The notes beneath the pieces were generated by a model, which ran no database searches, was not told the DNA's origin, and worked only from the letters and a program-made list of their open reading frames with translations. A DNA stretch of 64,000 nucleotides, from assembly GCF_027579695.1 (NCBI RefSeq), contig NC_083587.1:50161521-50225520 (forward strand). Reading direction: 5' to 3'. This DNA is from Neoarius graeffei. Lineage: Eukaryota; Chordata; Actinopteri; Siluriformes; Ariidae. Below, piece by piece: positions 3,982-57,066 of the stretch. Position numbers and translations under genes: made by a program. How positions within the stretch are numbered: the stretch's first letter is position 1; each line of letters starts with the position of its first letter.

Positions 3982-4034
<53 letters not shown>
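3982..4034. repeat. GT microsatellite
   Basis: Uninterrupted GT dinucleotides, abutting the left end of the Tc1-like element. Confidence 0.95.
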
Positions 4035-4036
<2 letters not shown>

Positions 4037-4037
<1 letters not shown>

Positions 4038-5609
4038 CTTGAAAGTTTGTGAACCCTTTAGAATTTTCTACATTTCTGCATAAATATGACCTAAAACATC
4101 AGATTTTCACACAAGTCCTAAAAGTAGATAAAGAGAACCCAGTTAAACAAATGAGACAAAAATATTATACTTGGTCATTTATTTATTGAGGAAAATGAGC
4201 CAATATTACATATCTGTGAGTGGCAAAAGTATGTGAACCTCTAGGATTAGCAGTTCATTTGAAGGTGAAATTTGAGTCAGGTGTTTTCAATCAGTGGGAT
4301 GACAATCAGGTGTGAGTGGGCACCCTGTTTTATTTAAAGAACAGGGATCTATCAAAGTCTGATCTTCACAACACGTTTGTGGAAGTGTATCATGGCACGA
4401 ACAAAGGAGATTTCTGAGGACCTCAGAAAAAGCGTTGTTGATGCTCATCAGGCTGGAAAAGGTTACAAAACCATCTCTAAAGAGTTTGGACTCCACCAAT
4501 CCACAGTCAGACAGATTGTGTACAAATGGAAGAAATTCAAGACCATTGTTACCCTCCCCAGGAGTGGTCAACCAACAAAGATCACTCCAAGAGCAAGGCG
4601 TGTAATAGTCGGCGAGGTCACAAAGGACCCCAGGGTAACTTCTAAGCAAATGAAGGTCTCTCTCACATTAGCTAATGTTAATGTTCATGAGTCCACCATC
4701 AGGAGAACACTGAACAGCAATGGTGTGCATGGCAAGGTTGCAAGGAGAAAGCCACTGCTCTCCAGAAAGAACATTGCTGCTCGTCTGCAGTTTGCTAAAG
4801 ATCATGTGGACAAGCCAGAAGGCTATTAGAAAAATGGTTTGTGGACAAATGAAACCAAAACAGAACTTTTTGGTTTAAATGAGAAGCGTTATGTTTGGAG
4901 AAAGGAAAACACTGCATTCCAGCATAAGAACCTTATTCCACCTATGAAACATGGTGGTGGTAGTGTCATGGTTTGGGCCTGTTTTGCTGCATCTGGGCCA
5001 GGACGGCTTGTCATCATTGATGGAACAGCGAATTCTAAAGGAAAATATCAGGACATCTGTCCATGAACTGAATCTCAAGAGAAGGTGGGTCACGCAGCAA
5101 GACAACGACCATAAGCACACAAGTCGTTCTACCAAAGAATGGTTAAAGAAGAATAAAGTTAATGTTTTGGAATGGCCAAGTCAAAGTCCTGACCTTAATC
5201 CAATAGAAATGTTGTGGAAGGACCTGAAGTGAGCAGTTCATGTGAGGAAACCCACCAACATCCCAGAGTTGAAGCTGTTCTGTACGGAGGAATGGGCTAA
5301 AATTCCTCCAAGCCGGTGTGCAGGACTGATCAACAGTTACCGCAAACATTTAGTTGCAGTTATTGCTGCACAAGGGGGTCACAGCAGATACTGAAAGCAA
5401 AGGTTCACAAGGTTTTGTCACTCACAGATATGTAATATTGGATCATTTTCCTCAATAAATAAATAAGTATAATATTTTTGTATCATTTGTTTAACTGGGT
5501 TCTCTTTATCTACTTTTAGGACTTGAGTGAAATCTGATGATATTTTAGGTTATATTTATGCAGAAATATAGAAAATTCTAAAGGGTTCACAAACTTTCAA
5601 GCACCACTG
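4037..5609 (+). mobile_element. Tc1-like transposon, decayed copy
   Basis: Long inverted terminal repeats (about 200 bp, beginning GCTTGAAAGTTTGTGAACCC) flank a transposase remnant. The right end closes with GCACCACTG. The first seven bases of the canonical left end seem replaced by the neighbouring GT tract. Both ends lie in GT-rich DNA. It is a sibling of the element at 53622-55231 and shorter by about 40 bp, partly through an internal deletion near 5030. Confidence 0.9.
4392..5394 (+). pseudogene. Tc1-like DD34E transposase, broken
   Basis: The enzyme would cut and paste its element at TA dinucleotides. The chosen start is the conserved MARTKE beginning; the frame opens five codons earlier. 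The first ~110 residues hold the two helix-turn-helix DNA-binding units, with a PRSGQPTKI linker. The catalytic region shows WTNE (sibling: WTDE, first D replaced by N), QQDND (second D) and NPIEMLW (E). Damage: a TAG at 4827, a deletion near 5030 that shifts the frame, and a TGA at 5230 after KDLK. The last stop is shared with the sibling copy. The protein is not functional as it stands. Confidence 0.9.
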
Positions 5610-5624
5610 TGTGTGTAATATATA

Positions 5625-23094: not shown

Positions 23095-24131
23095 TAAATG
23101 TGGAGGTGATTGTAGAAAATCATGCATTGATTGGTCAAGAAATTCAGACTATTTCTCAATAATCACCTCGAGCGACTCAGCAAAATGGCGGCGAATTGCT
23201 TTGTCATGTTAAGTGAGGAAAAATGACAAATTATGAAAGAAAATGTTCCTTAAAGCACTAAAGATGCTACAAAGTTTGGTCTAAAACTATTCAAAGATGA
23301 CGTGGAATTGTGATTTATTTTATCAATTTCAAAACAAAGTATTTTATGTGAGTCGGCATAGATAAGTGACACAAGTCTGCACACGTTACACTTGCATGCA
23401 GATTTTGAAGATTGAAATAAATTTTTTTCCCCATACATTTTTAAAAATAATCACCTGTGTATTTATATTAAAACAGTTATCCACCTCAGGCTCAGTGAAT
23501 ATCAGTGAATCATAACTTCAGTTATCGTCTCAGTTATTATTCACAGATATTCACCTCGCCTTCAGCGAATAAATGTTAATTATTTTTTTCGCAGTCCGGT
23601 TTCCATCAAATCCTGTGCTCTGATTGGCTGACGAGTGGGTCCGTATCCTACGATACAGACCCCAGATACGGACCTCTGGCGACTCGCTTGTTCACAACAA
23701 CAAACATAGTAGCAATTTTTGTCAACATTTATTTTCGCATTTCTCAGGAGAATAGCATTAATTTTACAGCATGGATAGCGATAATGACAGTGTTCACAGC
23801 GAAAGCGAGTTTTACTACCCCGAGGAAGAAGAAATAAAAGAAAACATTTCAGGAGAAAGCTAAAAACCTGTAACTGTCGCTAACGCCGAGCAAAAACATG
23901 GCTGAATCCTGATTGACTCAATTTTGTATAAATAGGGGACTACATAGGCAGCAAAATGTAGTTTCTTTCCTGCCATGGAAGTGCACTTGTACACCGAGGA
24001 GGAAACAATTTGCATGACATCCGCAAATGAGGATTCAAAATGGCAGCTCGCCTCGGCTCGGTTTTCCCTTTAGGGCGCTCTCGTTTTCTGTTAGAATTTG
24101 GTAAAGAAAAAAATATCATTTATCAGCTTAA
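23095..24131. other. Repeat-like AT-rich stretch with a 31-codon acidic frame
   Basis: Phrases such as GATATTCACCTCGCC and AATAATCACCTCGAGC, and an inverted pair GGTCCGTATC / GATACGGACC near 23640-23680, suggest old DNA transposon material. From 23772 an ATG opens an acidic frame (MDSDNDSVHSESEFYYPEEE...) that stops at about 23862; it resembles the N-terminus of a transposon protein but I cannot name it. No other gene is supported. Confidence 0.4.
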
Positions 24132-24771
24132 AGTGCCATTCCACCATTGGATGTATTCTTTGGCATAAAATACAATATATTTTATGACAACATGTCTAGA
24201 TAGAGAAATCTTTTAGCTTCAAAATGATATATCAAACATAATTTTTTGACAACGACAAGTATATTAATTTTGCGACCAAAGTCACCTACCCTTTTAATTT
24301 CCGCGTGGTAGTGAAACGTGATGTCATCGGCAGGTTCCCCTTCTTGTGTACCACGTCACGTGTGACGTGGCACAGATTATCAGCAATGGCGGATAGAACG
24401 CGATTGTCAGCTTCGGAAAAGAAGCGACGGAAAATAGCAAGTGATGCCCAAAGGAGACGGTCGATGGTGAATATTGGCACAGCAATCGACAAGTGGAAAT
24501 CGCGTTCTATCCGCCATTGCTGATAATCTGTGCCACGTCACACGTGACGTGGTACACAAGAAGGGGAACCTGCCGATGACATCACGTTTCACTACCGCGC
24601 GGAAATTAAAAGGGTAGGTGACTTTGGTCGCAAAATTAATATACTTGTCGTTGTCAAAAAATTATGTTTGATATATCATTTTGAAGCTAAAAGATTTCTC
24701 TGTCTAGTCATGTTGTCATAAAATATATTGTATTTTATGCCAAAGAATACATCCAATGGTGGAATGGCACT
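24132..24771. mobile_element. 640-bp foldback element with TTAA target sites
   Basis: The two ends (AGTGCCATTCCACCATTGGA and its complement) extend into inverted arms of about 270 bp (24132-24404 and 24499-24771) that pair almost base for base. TTAA lies on each side (24128 and 24772), as with piggyBac or Kolobok elements. The loop (24405-24498) holds coding-like sequence (SASEKKRRKIASDAQRRRS) that continues the ATGGCGGATAG of the left arm. The element could be a hairpin MITE formed around a transposase or host gene 5' end. Confidence 0.8.
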
Positions 24772-24779
24772 TTAAGGTC

Positions 24780-49060: not shown

Positions 49061-50049
49061 GGGCCTTGGAAGATGGCATGAAAGAATTTCGTCTAGCTTG
49101 TCCTGGTACTGTACCAGGTGGTCCCATTCATAGCCATTCCTGAAACTTTCATGACGTCATGCATGATATGGAGATCACAGATGGTCACTACCTATATGCA
49201 CACCAAGTTTTGTCCAGATATCTTGAAAACTGAGCGAGAAGTGACCCTTGCCTAACTACTACTACAGCATATACACTAAACCTAAGCAATTTCAAGATCC
49301 CATTTGCACTTCAGTGGAAATGGGATAATAAGTTTAACTTAGATAGCACCTTTCTTACACCCAAGGTCACTTTACAATTACAAAAACAAAAAAAATTCCA
49401 CCAGTAGAGGATCAGGATGTAATTCCAATGGTGTAGCCACCCACAGTCCCACCAAAAGGCACACAAAGGTATGTTCCACACCGCCTGCATAGCTGTCATG
49501 ACGCCACCAGGCAACATCGCCTGGAACACCATGCCATGGATCCACAAAGCCAGCACAGAAGCACCGCTACACAGAGCACTGGACAACCCCAATGTTAAAA
49601 GAGCAATGAGCTCACTGCAGTCCATAGCGAGGAGCACAGGCATCACCCATGGCGCACAAAGGCCTGAAGGAAACTGAAGCCCAAAACTGGGTCCAGAGCT
49701 ACACCACAACCGGCAGACAGAACATTCAAACAAAAAACAAACATCAAACTATACAAACACAAAAAGAAAAAAAAACAAAGGGAGAAAAAAAAATGAAAAG
49801 CTCCGGTGAGAAGCAGCAGCCAAAATGTGCACAGCGTACTCTCAACCGGAAACGGAAACAGTTTGATGTATTAAAGAGTTTGATATGTTTAGTGATTCTG
49901 GTGATATTTATCTATGCCAACTTTGTTACTTCTGCCAGCTTTGTTTGCCTGTTCCCAACGTAGCTCAAAAAGTAGTAAACTGATTTTGATTAGTTATCTT
50001 TTTATTTTCATGTAAGTTCACTATTAACTGTAAAATTTTGACACATTAT
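49061..50049. repeat. Further interspersed repeat sequence, no gene
   Basis: 49315-49700 (TAGCACCTTTCTTACACCCA, CTTTACAATTACAAAA) resembles a common teleost repeat. A hydrophobic antisense frame at 49311-49733 (140 aa) and short forward frames are not supported as genes. 49915-50010 holds a fragment of the CCTCCACCAAG repeat. Confidence 0.5.
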
Positions 50050-50789
50050 CTATATTTACCTCCACCAAGTTTAATGGAGGAGGTTATGTTTTTGCCTCCA
50101 TTTATTTGTCTTTTCCCCAACATATCTCAAAAAGTAGTGAATGAATTTTGATGAAATTTGGAGGAAAGGTGAGCCATGGGACAAGGAACAATTTATTCGA
50201 TTTTGATGCAAATCCAGATATGAATGTGGATCCAGGATTGTTTTGTCTGTTCCCAGTGTAACTCAAAAAGTAGTGAAATAATTTTGATGAAATTTGGAGG
50301 AAAGGTGAGGGCCAAGGAACAGTTGATTAGATTTTGATGCAAATCGGCTTAGCAGAGGTATGCACTCTACCGAGTGCCCTTCTAGTTTGCTGTGTTTTTT
50401 TTTTTAACGAGCTGCTCTGACATCACATGAGGACGTTTCATTAAAGAAGTGCAGCTACAACCGCATTTAATAGTAGGAAAAAACCTGAAAAATACAAACA
50501 ATCTCAAATCAGGTTTTGCTGAGAAGAAAAACAAATCAAGAGCTTCTTTCCTGACTCAGATTTTCCCAGTGTTATATTAATGAAAGAGTGAAAAACTTGA
50601 AGAGCCAAAATGCAACGCAGGTCTGTATATGATTCGATTGAGTTGTGGCAGAGACGTGACTTGGCTAGTTAGCGAGCTACAAGATGACGAGCATGATGGC
50701 ACTGATGGTGGTATTAGTATGAAAGCTGAAGCTTGGGAAGCTGATCTATTTGAACAGATTGTAGAAATAAGGAGGGAAAATAGCCACAT
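50050..50789. repeat. Left ~740-bp direct repeat flanking the LINE
   Basis: It aligns from CTRTATTTACCTCCACCAAG to RATAGCCACAT with 56081-56836 with scattered substitutions and one 9-bp gap near 50347. The first half is the CCTCCACCAAG repeat, the second half (50400-50789) occurs only in these two places in the window. A frame at 50629-50832 (ELQDDEHDGTDGG...) has no known domain. Confidence 0.9.
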
Positions 50790-53621
50790 CACTGAGGATG
50801 TGTCCAAGCTGCACTATTCAAGGTGTTTCTAATAACTGTCTATAACTGGTGTAGCCAGTGACCTCCAGGAAAGGGTGGATGACAACCACGAATAGTGTGG
50901 TGATGACTGGAGAGACAGTGGACAGCACGGAGAGATGGCAACCAGGGCAGTAAGGGTTAGCACCCCGAGCTGCAGCCCCCATGAGGGAGCACCCAACCAA
51001 GCTACAGAAAGCCCTATTGAAAGATACCCCCAGGGATGCTCGAGAGGGGGGGAGAATGAGCACCCCAGACGGACGGATTTCCTGGCAAGAGACATGAGCG
51101 ATGGATTATCATCTACGAGAGTAACCTGTTTGTGTGGCAAGAGCTGCAAGAACCTGAAGGGTCTGAAGATCCACCAGACCAAGATGGGCTGCACAAGGAG
51201 GAAGCAAGCTGATCAATGCACAGAGGCAGTGCTTAGTACTGTCCCTGGTGAGACAGAGGAGGAGCTGGACCCGGAGTCACCCCACAGTGTCCAGAACCTC
51301 CAAGCTCAGCGTGCTGCATCTAGCAAACCATCTGAACGTCGCCGGGTCCTGTGGCCTGCTGTACACAAGGAGACTGAGTGGCACTAGTTTGACGAAGACG
51401 TCAATGCTGCCCTGGAAGCATCATCGAAGGGAGCAGTGGAACAGCAGCTCCAAATGATGTGCATCTTCATCATCAGCATTGGCGCTGAGCATTTTGGCAT
51501 CAAACAGCCAAAGGCCAAGATTACAGCTAGGCCAAACTGACAGGAGAGCAAGATCACCCAGCTCAGGGAAGACCTGAAGGCCCTTAAACAGTGCTACAAG
51601 AGTGTGAGTGAGGAGGAAAGACCTGCCCTGGCAGAGCTCCAGGACATCCTCAGAAAGAAGCTCATCTCCTTACGTTGTGCTGAGTGGCACAGGAGGAAGG
51701 GCAGAGAGGGGGCTCGCAAGCGCACTGCTTTTATAGCAAATCCATTTGGATTTACTAAAAAGCTGCTAGGGCAGAGGCGAAGCTGAACCCTCATGTGCCC
51801 AGAAGAGGACATCAACCAACACCTCAGTGTCACTTACTGTGACAGGCATAGGGAGGAAGATCTTGGGCCCTGCAGAGAGCTAATTACACCACCCACACCC
51901 TCCATCCAATTCAACACTAAAGAGCCCACTCTGGCAGAAGTCAGGGAGACAGACAGGGCTGCGCAGACCAGTGCAGCACCAGGGCCGAGTGGTGTGCCAT
52001 ACAAAGTGTACAAATACTGCCCAAGACTCCTGGAGAGGCTGTGGAGGATCATCAGGGTGGTATGGTGGAGGGGAAGGGTAGCCAAGCAATGGAGGCATGC
52101 AGAAGGTGTCTGGATACCGAAGGAGGAGAAAGGAAGTGATATCAGTCAGTTTCGAACCATCTCGCTGCTCAGTGTAGAGGGCAAAATCTTTTTCAAGATT
52201 CTTGCCAACCGCATGACCAAGTTCCTCCTGAGGAATTCCTATATCGACACTAGTGTGCAGAAGGGGGGAGTTCCAGGCATTCAAGGCTGCATAGAATACA
52301 CAGGAGTGGTCACCTAGTTAATCCGAGAGGCAAGGGAAAACCGAGGAGATTTATCAGTCATCTGGCTTGATCTGGCAAACGCCTATGGATCCATCCCTCA
52401 CAAACTGGTGACAAAAGCCTTGACAATCCACCACGTTCCACAGAAGGTAATAGAACTCATACAGGACTATTATAGTAGTTTCAGCATGAGATTCACCTCT
52501 GGAGCAATAACATCTGCGTGACACCACCTAGAAAAAGGCATCATCACTGGTTGCACCATATCAGTGACGCTGTTTGCTCTGGCGATGACTATGTTTGTCA
52601 AGGCAGCGGAAGTGGAGTGCAGAGGTCCTCTGTCCAGATCTGGCATTCGCCAACCGCCGATTCGAGCTTTTATGGACGATCTGACTGTCACAGCAACATT
52701 AGTGCCAGGATGCCGCTGGCTCCTCAGAGGCCTGGAAAGGCTAGTAACATGGGCAAGAATGTCATTTAAGCCAGCCAAATGCAGGTCCCTGGTCCTGAGG
52801 AAGGGGAGAGTAGTGGACAAGTACCGCTTCCACTTAGATGGACTCCCAATTCCATTGGTGTCAGAGAAGCCTGTGAAGAGCCTGGGGAAGATCTTCGACG
52901 CCACTCTGAGAGATACAGCGGCGATCCGATTAATGCAGGCAGAGCTGAAAGCCTGGCTATCAGCAGTAGACAGGTCAGGCCTTCCTGGGAAGTTCAAGGC
53001 ATGGATATATCAACATGGCATCCTGCCAAGACTTCTATGGCCACTGTTGATGTACCAAGTCCCAATAACAACAGTGGAGGGCTTTGAGCGAAACATCAGC
53101 CAGTTCCTGCGCAGGTGGCTGGGTCTGCCGAAGAGTCTGAGCTGCATTGCCCTGTATGGGCACACTAACAAACTGCAGCTTCCTTTCTCTGGCCTGACAG
53201 AGGAATTCAAAGTAACAAGAGCCAGGGAGGTGTTACTATACAGAGACTCATCTGACACCAGAGTCTCCTCTGCAGGCATAGTGGTCAGAACTGGAAGGAA
53301 GTGGCAGGCACAGGAGGCAGTCTAGCAGGCAGAAGTGAGGCTGCAACATGGCGTCTTGGTGGGCTCGGTGGCAGTCGGACAAGCGGGGCTTAGCAGCCAT
53401 ACTAAACCATGCTACAATAGAGCCCAGGGGAGAGAGAGATGGCAGCTTATCCAGGGCAAGATCCGGACAGAGGTGGAGGAAGAACGCCGTAGCAGAGCAG
53501 TGACCATGCGCCAGCAAGGAGCTTGGACCAACTGGGGCCATGCATCGACTCGGAAGATCACCTGGTCAGAAATTTGGAAATCAGAACCAGCAAGACTCAA
53601 GTTCCTGATCCAGTCTGTGTA

Positions 53622-55231
53622 CAGTGGTGCTTGAAAGTTTGTGAACCCTTTAGAATTTTCTATATTTCTGCATAAATATGACCTAAAACATCATCGGATT
53701 TTCACACAAGTCCTAAAAGTAGAGAAAGAGAACCCAGTTAAACAAATGAGACAAAAATATTATACTTGGTCATTTATTTATTGAAGAAAATGATCAAATA
53801 TTACATATCTGTGAGTGGCAAAAGTATGTGAACCTTTGCTTTCAGTATCTGGTGTGACCCCCTTGTGCAGCGATAACTGCAACTAAACGTTTGCGGTAAC
53901 TGTTGATCAGTCCTGCACACTGGCTTGGAGGAATTTTAGCCCATTCCTCCATACAGAACAGCTTCAACTCTGGGATGTTGGTGGGTTTCCTCACATGAAC
54001 TACTCACTTCAGGTCCTTCCACAACATTTCGATTGGATTAAGGTCAGGACTTTGACTTGGCCATTCCAAAACATTAACTTTATTCTTCTTTAACCATTCT
54101 TTGGTAGAACGACTTGTGTGCTTAGGGCCGTTGTCTTGCTGCATGACCCACCTTCTCTTGAGATTCAGTTCATGGACAGATGTCCTGACATTTTCCTTTA
54201 GAATTCGCTGGTATAATTCAGAATTCATTGTTCCATCAATGATGGCAAGCCATCCTGGCCCAGATGCAGCAAAACAGGCCCAAACCATGATACTACTACC
54301 ACCATGTTTCACAGATGGGATAAGGTTCTTATGCTGGAATGCAGTGTTTTCCTTTCTCCAAACATAACGCTTCTCATTTAAACCAAAAAGTTCTATTTTG
54401 GTCTCATCCGTCCACAAAACATTTGTCCAATAGCCTTCTGGCTTGTCCACATGATCTTTAGCAGACTGTAGACAAGCAGCAATGTTCTTTTTGGAGAGCA
54501 GTGGCTTTCTCCTTGCAGCCCTGCCATGCACACCACTGTTGTTCAGTTTTTTCCTGATGGTGGACTCATGAACATTAACATTAGCCAATGTGAGAGAGGC
54601 CTTCAGTTGCTTAGAAGTTACCCTGGGGTCCTTTGTGACCTCGCCAACTATTACACGCCTTGATCTTGGAGTGATCTTTGTTGGTCGCCCACTCCTGGGG
54701 AGGGTAACAATGGTCTTGAGTTTCCTCCATTTGTACACAGTCTGTCTGTCTGTGGACTGGTGGAGTCCAAGCTCTTTAGAGATGGTTTTGTAACCTTTTC
54801 CAGCCTGATGAGCATCAGTAACACTTTTTCTGAGGTCCTCAGAAATCTCCTTTGTTCGTGCCATGATCCACTTCCACAAACATGTGTTGTGAAGATCAGA
54901 CTTTGATAGATCCTTGTTCTTTAAATAAAACATGGTGCTCACTCACACCTGATTGTCATCCCATTGATTGAAAACACCTGACTCTAATTTCACCTTCAAA
55001 TTAACTGCTCATCCTAGAGGTTCACATACTTTTGCCACTCACAGATATGTAATATTGGCTCATTTTCCTCAATAAATAAATGACCAAGTATAATATTTTT
55101 GTCTCATTTGTTTAACTGGGTTCTCTTTATCTACCTTTAGGACTTGTGTGAAAATCCGATGATGTTTTAGGTCATATTTATGCAGAAATATAGAAAATTC
55201 TAAAGGGTTCACAAACTTTCAAGCACCACTG
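53622..55231 (-). mobile_element. Tc1-like transposon inserted in the LINE
   Basis: A 1610-bp element with ends CAGTGGTGCTTGAAAGTTTG and complement, flanked by TA (53620 and 55232). It is the better-preserved sibling of 4037-5609. Its insertion point lies in the LINE codon for the Tyr of VYDVLPSPSN. Confidence 0.97.
53842..54864 (-). pseudogene. Tc1-like DD34E transposase with one stop
   Basis: From MARTKE (54864) the frame is open to a TGA at 54004 after KDLK, and then continues in frame to a second stop at 53842, giving the usual ~340 codons. The DNA-binding half and the catalytic residues WTDE, QQDNGPKH and NPIEMLW are intact, and D and E are 34 residues apart. The single internal stop would remove the last ~53 residues. 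It follows AAG and could be a CGA-to-TGA change at a CpG. The frame also opens 26 codons upstream, but the MARTKE start is the conserved one. Function is doubtful because the C-terminal part is conserved in Tc1 transposases. Confidence 0.93.
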
Positions 55232-56080
55232 TATGATGTCCTCCCAAGTCCATCAAACTTCCATTGCTGGGGGCTGGCAGAAACACCATCATGTCCACTG
55301 TGCCCCTGGAGCACATCTTAAGCTGCTGCCCGAAAGCCCTGGGAGAGGGGCGGTACAGATGGCGCCATGACCAGGTGCTGAAGGCGGTTGCTGACACCAT
55401 CTGCACTGGAATCCAGCAGAGTAGATACCAGCCCCCAGTAAGGCTGAACATCACATTCATCAGGGCTGGAGAGAAGCCTCAGTTGAAGCGAAAGGTCCCA
55501 ACTGGGCTGTTATCCTCAGTGCGTGACTGGCAGCTGAAGGTGGACCTTGGGAGGCAGTTGAAGTTCCCTGAGCACATCACCAGCACAACACTCAGGCCAG
55601 ATATGGTCCTAACATCTGAGAGCTCAAAGCAAGTGGTGCTGGTGGAACTAACAGTCCCCTGGGAAGACCTGATTGAGGTGGCCTACAAGCAGAAGAAGGC
55701 AAAGTACCTGGAGCTGGTAGAGGCCTGCAGGCTGAATGGTTGGAGGGCCCACTGTGAGCCAATCGAGGTCGGTTGTAGGGGATTTCCAGGGCAGAGCCTG
55801 CACCGGACACTCAGGCTTCTTGGCATCAGGGGGTTACAGGAGAGGAAAGCCACCAAGAACATCAGTGAGGCAGCAGAGAAAGCCTCAAGCTGGCTGTGGA
55901 TTAAGAGGGGCAATACATGGTGTAGTGCGCTGCTTGGACACAAGTTGGGGACTGATCAACCCCGACTGGGTCGCCCAGGCGAGGGTGTCTGATGATCCAA
56001 GACCCGAAACACCCCGTGACCCTGGGTTTATCACTGAGGATGTGTCCAAGCTGCACCATTCAAGGTGTTTCTAATAACTA

Positions 56081-56836
56081 CTGTATTTACCTCCACCAAG
56101 TTTAATGGAGGAGGTTATGTTTTCGCCTCCATTTGTTTGTCTTGTCCCCAATATATCTCAAAAAGTAGTGAATGAATTTTGATGAAATTTGGAGGAAAGG
56201 TGAGCCATGGGACAAGGAACAATTTGTTCGATTTTGATGCAAATCCAGATATGAATGCGGATCCAGGATTGTTTTGTCTGTTCCCAGTGTAACTCAAAAA
56301 GTAGTGAAATAATTTTGATAAAATTTGGAGGAAAGGTGAGGGCCAAGGAACAGTTGATTAGATTTTGATAGAAATCAGAAGATGTGGCTTAGCGGAGGTA
56401 TGCACTCTACTGAGTGCCCTTCTAGTTTGCTGTGTTTCATTTTTTTTAAACGAGCTGCTCTGACATCACATGAGGACGTTGCATTAAAGAAGTGCAGCTA
56501 CAACCACATTTAATAGTAGGAAAAAACCTGAAAAATACAAACAAACAATCTCAAATCAGGTTTTGCTGAGAAGAAAAACAAATCAAGAGCTTCTTTCCTG
56601 ACTCAGATTTTCCCAGTGTTATATTAATGAAAGAGTGAAAAACTTGGAGAGCCAAAATGCAATGCAGGTCTGTATATGATTCGATTGAGTTGTGGCAGAG
56701 ACGCGACTTGGCTAGTTAGCAAGCTACGAGATGACGAGCATGATGGCACTGATGGTGGTATTAGTATGAAAGCTGAAGCTTGGGAAGCTGATCTATTTGA
56801 ACAGATTGTAGAAATAAGGAGGGAAGATAGCCACAT
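56081..56836. repeat. Right ~756-bp direct repeat flanking the LINE
   Basis: The copy of 50050-50789. It follows the 3' end of the LINE with no spacer and ends at CCACAT, after which AGGGTAAAAGCTG begins, sequence not found next to the left copy. Confidence 0.9.
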
Positions 56837-57066
56837 AGGGTAAAAGCTGAAACAAGGGTTCAATTCCATTGGCACCACTGTTGTCAAGTAATTGAATGGC
56901 ATGATGGGTAATATCGGAAACGGTTCACCAAACTGAAAACAGACCAGCTTACTGTTGAAGCTCACATTAATCATAAAGATGAATATGCAAGATGTTCAGG
57001 ATGGAGTTTTCCTTTAACAATCTATCTGGAAAAAATTCCAAGAAGGTACCCAGTTACACTTCAGGA
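56837..57066. other. Gene-free flank
   Basis: Probably the DNA that lay next to the right repeat before the LINE arrived. No features. Confidence 0.5.

Follow-up and report, generated by a model that had tools for sequence, protein, structure and literature searches.

The window analyzed here is a 64,000-nucleotide stretch of contig C20 of Neoarius graeffei, whose assembly comprises 2.34 Gb in 38 contigs. It carries a long interspersed nuclear element (LINE) on the plus strand (50789-56079) set between two long direct repeats, A-left (50050..50788) and A-right (56081..56836), likewise on the plus strand. By BLAST within the window and by alignment, 50050-50789 and 56081-56836 match in direct orientation at 95.4% over 756 columns, with 718 identities, 21 substitutions (17 of them transitions) and three internal gaps of 9, 3 and 4 bp. 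This is the longest direct-repeat pair in a self-comparison of the window, followed by a 690-bp pair at 85.5% and a tandem array. At the left junction, A and the LINE share a single T (50789), assignable to either side, and at the right junction one extra adenine (56080) separates the LINE from A-right; the duplicated target runs up to both LINE ends within 1 bp. The original prediction, a LINE between abutting direct repeats of 740 and 756 bp, is borne out by both methods. It had overlooked 49-50 bp common to the start and end of the LINE. The element opens with a copy of its own 3' end (R-left, 50789..50837), continues through a body (50838..56030) that harbors a Tc1-like transposon, and closes with R-right (56031..56079), all on the plus strand; its first 49 nt equal its last 49 nt but for one base.

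Positions 1 to about 355 of A (50050..50404, plus strand) belong to an older interspersed repeat with at least 38 other places at 79-84% identity among the matches listed, as originally described. The remainder, which had been taken for sequence seen nowhere else in the window, includes a second old repeat at about 50639-50775, with 70-87% identity elsewhere in the assembly. Whole-genome searches, in each of which the best 40 candidates were scored, returned a full-length match to A only at the two places in the window, and the 3' flanks of other LINE copies are mutually unrelated. Because no other full A is listed and these flanks differ, A is not part of the element. This agrees with the earlier view that the repeats are not its long terminal repeats, and the idea that A serves the element as a terminal repeat, or is a transduced part of it, was rejected on the same grounds. 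The original prediction had named other family copies carrying the 740 bp as the contrary finding; no such copy is among the matches listed. Separately, at 50050-50060, the putative first nick falls, by eye, no more than about 5-7 bp from the start of the older interspersed repeat, possibly by coincidence.

The element is well supported as a LINE. Its open frame is divided into part 1 (50947..53634, plus strand), which holds six in-frame stops, and a C-terminal part (55237..55989, plus strand), and neither part is frameshifted. Between them lies the Tc1-like transposon (53624..55233, edges to within a few bp), a later insertion into the LINE with its transposase on the minus strand and terminal inverted repeats of about 216 bp that are 97.7% identical; all six stops lie upstream of it. 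With the stops read through, Pfam RVT_1 matches the translation at E 6e-19, and the best solved-structure match of the reverse transcriptase (RT) domain in part 1 (about 52114-52887, plus strand) is an R2 retrotransposon protein (E 2e-21), with L1 ORF2 at 1e-12. An alignment of 12 LINE copies shows an RPD...ELTVPWED...KKAKY pattern, present in the C-terminal part as RPD...ELTVPWED...KKAKYLEL, which we take to be associated with restriction-like endonucleases (RLE). A motif near the start of part 1 is presumably zinc-finger-like. The endonuclease part has no Pfam match and no PDB match better than E 0.43, and the AlphaFold model of the C-terminal domain (pLDDT 34) gives an unusable fold. In the earlier label of an RLE-type LINE, the second half is well supported, while the first draws on the R2-like RT and the motifs, with an endonuclease part that has no database match.

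The LINE ends in AAGGTGTTTCTAATAACT without poly(A), and copies of each subfamily stop at, or a few nucleotides from, one 3' end. Their unrelated 3' flanks, with no fixed site such as the 28S rRNA gene, indicate that the LINE is not site-specific; it presumably inserts by target-primed reverse transcription (TPRT). No relatives were found in viral contigs, and 28 pattern matches in genome contigs yielded no confirmed one. Just upstream of R-right, at 55930-56031, lies a conserved stretch common to the subfamilies (GGGTGT...GAAACACCC...GGGTT), possibly a structured RNA signal for RT or for RNA 5'-end formation.

Long repeats of this kind are not confined to the window. Among 29 insertions from three subfamilies tested for direct repeats abutting both LINE ends, six have repeats longer than 20 bp (about 2.5 kb, 740, 610, 170, about 89 and 32 bp). 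The longest is at C12:44.2M (loci are given as contig and position), where a left copy of 2,502 bp and a right copy of 3,144 bp are 95.3% identical over 2,415 aligned columns, and the right copy has extra stretches of 333 and 372 bp. Here a partial match came first; it was predicted that the sequence 1.8 kb further upstream would match the start of the 3' flank, and this was then found. At C12:19.16M, a very young copy, a 610-bp pair is 99.67% identical and lies within 4 bp of both LINE ends. The others are an abutting repeat of about 170 bp at C10:36.2M (96.5%), one at C12:32.9M measuring 86 bp by BLAST (94.2%) and about 89 bp by alignment, its 3' junction holding about 13 additional bp, and one of 32 bp at C4:3.1M (87.5%). 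Ten-bp abutting repeats occur at two further insertions, L020 and L037. As a chance control, 240 mismatched flank pairs from 16 single-locus copies reached at most 17.5 bits at the junction, compared with 276 for C10:36.2M; the 10-bp cases, at 19.3 bits, barely exceed it. Repeats longer than 20 bp are found at 5/13 copies with a complete 5' end and 1/16 others, a tally whose numbers are too small for a claim.

The census comprises 14 single loci (L018, L019, L020, L021, L022, L025, L028, L029, L031, L032, L034, L037, L039 and L040) and seven pairs (L049/L030, L050/L027, L052/L024, L051/L033, L026/L023, L053/L036 and L054/L038), with which L055, holding both ends in one locus, is counted (8 in all), giving 22; the remaining 7 are the window, L076, C12:19.16M, and the insertions on C2, C14, C25 and C13. 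The 3' flanks reached about 1.5 kb for the first 22 (240 bp for L055), extended to 4 kb for L036, L025, L022, L028, L040, L034, L039 and C11 and to 5.8 kb for C6, and 1.2-1.5 kb for the other insertions, while the 5' flanks measured between 446 bp and 3.9 kb. Duplications longer than this may be missed at copies without an extended flank. By eye, the 5' ends of L050/L027, L029, L032, L051/L033, L052/L024 and C25 are not clean, and C25:50.79M, which lies within an abundant repeat, one present many times over at 98-100%, was rejected as an informative case. Left out were L046, a split copy, and L027 and L030 as singles, their 5' parts forming pairs; L035, L041-L045 and L056-L074 stood outside, since each either lacked one flank or duplicated a locus already in the census. 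The tally also excludes two short matches, one of 6 bp at L021 and one of about 9 bp, with filler, at L026/L023. Three loci, L055, L057 and L058 (G000:C4:3105989, 3132672 and 3335489), are segmental duplications of one partial LINE dimer within about 230 kb and were counted once because their flanks are shared.

Repeats formed at insertion should diverge in step with the age of the LINE subfamily. The window repeats are 97.2% identical, compared with a mean pairwise LINE identity of 95.6% among 16 subfamily copies; the repeats at C12:44.2M stand at 95.3%, compared with 93.2% among 10 copies, two of which are segmental duplicates. At C12:19.16M (L075, L088; G000:C12:19164281-19167904), the 99.7% identity of the repeats accompanies a subfamily whose 3' end matches at least 40 places, the 40 listed ones at 96-100%, and which may have been active recently. 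For the longer duplications, these comparisons show divergence roughly in step with subfamily age. A second clock, the stops and indels of the window LINE, is split: six stops point to a somewhat older element, and zero frameshifts to a younger one. The stops appear private, since the other readable copies (4 to 8 per place) have sense codons there.

The right copy seems to be the one continuous with the ancestral flank, more clearly at C12:19.16M than in the window. At C12:19.16M, a Tc1-like element aligns without interruption from position 252 to 1022 of the 3' flank, running past the distal end of the right copy at 614, and in the left copy the same element ends where the LINE begins. In the window, A-right is apparently continuous with the native right flank: at two of 38 other places of the old repeat that overlaps the end of A, the match is colinear on both sides of 56836/56837, with the second piece at E 1.7e-6 and 8.8e-4.

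Taken together, these observations make it very probable that the 740-bp repeats are a giant target-site duplication made by a non-site-specific, R2-group-like LINE, as the original prediction had suggested. Several features support this reading: the abutment within 1 bp, the lack of any other full A among the matches listed and of A at other copies, the repeats longer than 20 bp abutting five other insertions at unrelated targets, the divergence of the longer duplications, which roughly follows subfamily age, and a near-fixed start of R at five loci, described below. Long duplications at several related copies indicate that this LINE sometimes duplicates a long stretch of its landing site. 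In TPRT, a target duplication arises when the second strand is cut downstream of the first nick (PMC2666801, PMC6895275). In the proposed sequence of events, the pre-insertion site would have been a single A joined to AGGGTAAAAGCTG. An R2-group-like LINE, inserting by TPRT without a fixed site, would have nicked the bottom strand first, at 50049/50050, and the top strand would have broken about 740 bp downstream, at the point now marked by 56836/56837. Once the cDNA was copied and the wide stagger filled in, 740 bp would be left on each side of the element. A second-strand break that is only loosely placed in this group would account both for duplications as short as about 10 bp or as long as about 2.5 kb and for some insertions without a detectable one. 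We infer the order of the cuts, the maker of the distant second break (the element's own endonuclease, a pre-existing nick or a sister-chromatid break) and a transcription start as the cause of R. Within this reading, the cDNA may instead have paired with a downstream break in the sister chromatid, a route that we consider a serious minority possibility; it would give kilobase sizes without melting a long duplex and an identical final sequence, although one loosely placed second break accounts equally well for lengths spread between 10 bp and 2.5 kb.

Some points weigh against a giant target-site duplication. All loci were read from one assembly. Looking for long flanking repeats at other copies, as had been proposed, turned them up at five of these (about 2.5 kb, 610, 170, about 89 and 32 bp), and 21 of the 29 insertions have no abutting repeat by the test, some of them ending at a nested insertion. 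At C14:77.87M, C2:120.38M, C6:8.17M, C11:1.73M and C13:16.72M, whose 5' ends we judged proper, no repeat lies within the 1.2-5.8 kb of 3' flank, and for C14:77.87M and C2:120.38M the genome matches listed contain no second copy of the 5' flank within 25 kb. Repeat identity departs from subfamily age at the shorter pairs (87.5% at 32 bp and 94.2% at 86 bp). Finally, the six private stops exceed the number guessed from repeat divergence, a rough estimate, and no frameshift accompanies them in either part.

The 5' end of the LINE is itself unusual. The R start seen in the window recurs at C12:32.94M (L049) and, nearly the same, at three other loci of related subfamilies. The 5'-end sample consists of 23 loci with a match reaching query position 19 or less, from 30 fetched of 40 listed places, and includes L055 and L058, segmental duplicates of one event. 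At 22/23 of these loci, a 3'-end fragment of another copy lies directly before the 5' start, L072 being without one. At five loci from three subfamilies (the window, with its 49 nt, and L049, L053, L054 and L076), the fragment lengths are, in ascending order, 43, 49, 49, 50 and 52 nt, and at most others they lie between about 100 and 821 bp; at L051 it is at least 216 bp and bounded, by eye, by another transposon. Four further loci have fragments of 102 bp, 162 bp, about 453 bp and about 1.5 kb, and at C12:37.94M the head-to-tail junction is direct, without a spacer. The longer upstream fragments are best read as partial head-to-tail dimers. The tight 43-52-nt cluster in three subfamilies suggests a defined RNA 5' end, placed inside the 3' end of an upstream copy. 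The inserted RNA would then be terminally redundant, starting 49 nt before the 3' end of the upstream copy and ending at its own normal 3' end.

The 49-bp terminal repeat could also have arisen without a terminally redundant RNA, by a jump of the reverse transcriptase from the 5' end of one template to the 3' end of a second RNA. Such template jumping is reported for LINE reverse transcriptases including that of R2 (PMC6895275), and it would suit the upstream fragments of other loci, whose lengths vary between about 100 bp and about 1.5 kb. Lengths of 43, 49, 49, 50 and 52 nt at five loci are, however, not expected from random jumping, and we regard this origin as rather unlikely. A hammerhead or hepatitis delta virus-like ribozyme at the RNA start was considered on account of CTGATGA and GAAAC just upstream of R and was rejected, as by eye related subfamilies do not conserve the core; a search of Rfam with window positions 49900-57000 gave four matches, all under their gathering scores and none to a ribozyme.

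Two accounts of the repeats without a duplicating insertion fare much worse. Had A already been tandem, with the LINE landing precisely where its two units met, the final order would be the same, and only two full copies of A are among the matches listed. This would nevertheless demand insertion within 1 bp of the junction and the same coincidence in unrelated sequences at C12:44.2M, C12:19.16M, C10:36.2M and C12:32.9M, and in age the longer repeats approximately match the LINE subfamilies; we hold this account to be very improbable. Less probable still is an assembly artefact or false haplotype duplication, for although assembly errors can duplicate sequence, 21 substitutions and three gaps separate the window copies, the right copy at C12:44.2M has 333 + 372 bp extra, and duplications end at the LINE ends at several loci. 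The overall agreement in age is predicted by neither. A giant target-site duplication remains the preferred reading. It could form part of a broader picture, to which we give somewhat less than an even chance: an R2-group LINE lineage in which second-strand cleavage is untied from the first nick and kilobase duplications arise regularly in the germ line. Such a lineage would also follow a Penelope-like cycle, with transcription starting inside an upstream partial copy, about 50 nt short of its 3' end, to give an R-body-R RNA, and with new copies needing a partial head-to-tail dimer for a promoter.

Elsewhere in the window, a second Tc1-like copy at 4030-5610 is 93.5% alike to the one within the LINE. 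An inverted repeat with 279-bp arms (24127-24405 and 24498-24776) is 98.9% identical, with about 92 bp of spacing. A 537-bp direct pair (8944-9480/12757-13293, 97.6%) was rejected as a parallel case, as to the eye the pair looks like two copies of an interspersed element that has terminal inverted repeats.

How the second-strand break of LINEs is made and placed has been called very poorly understood (PMC6895275). A LINE in an animal genome that duplicates its flanking DNA over kilobases bears on this question: a natural group with duplications from 10 bp to about 2.5 kb, together with a young subfamily at 40 or more places, would offer a dataset on the origin of the second break, on which the element, a random nick and the sister chromatid can be tested as candidates. 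The near-fixed terminal redundancy of 43-52 nt likewise makes a clear prediction of where the RNA starts.

Long duplications are known from other LINEs. In human cells without nucleotide excision repair, L1 duplications range from 5 bp to 5.3 kb with a median of 1,495 bp (PMC5223499), and in wild-type chicken cells 1/25 insertions of the zebrafish L2 element ZfL2-2 had a 1,228-bp duplication (PMC2666801). The window group shares duplications of hundreds to thousands of bp with human L1 and ZfL2-2, but these are other lineages in cultured cells, whereas the window group is R2-like and seen in a genome assembly. An L1-mediated duplication of 22.6 Mb has been explained by joining to a sister-chromatid break (PMC7058536). 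Within the R2 group, the longest target duplication found in the portions of the open-access literature covered is the 126 bp of R9 from bdelloid rotifers (cited in PMC6895275, PMC3636483); in those portions, no LINE of the R2 group has duplications that reach hundreds of bp, and none regularly has partial head-to-tail copies. One family of Utopia is occasionally tandem in U2 genes (PMC4640811). R9 resembles the window group in being a LINE of the R2 group and in the unusual length of its target duplication, but it is specific to rDNA, with 126 bp, whereas the window group has unrelated targets and duplications from 10 bp to about 2.5 kb. The R2 clade proper keeps to a fixed site in the 28S rRNA gene, unlike the window LINE, whose copies lie in unrelated flanks. 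Many members of the HERO clade, R2-group LINEs known from fish, are like the window LINE in not being site-specific (PMC4640811, PMC3636483, PMC9004415). Penelope-like elements have tandem or partial-tandem copies with repeated flanking ends (PMC11167929), as does the window LINE group; they differ in that the window LINE has an R2-like RT and no GIY-YIG domain found at E up to 1.

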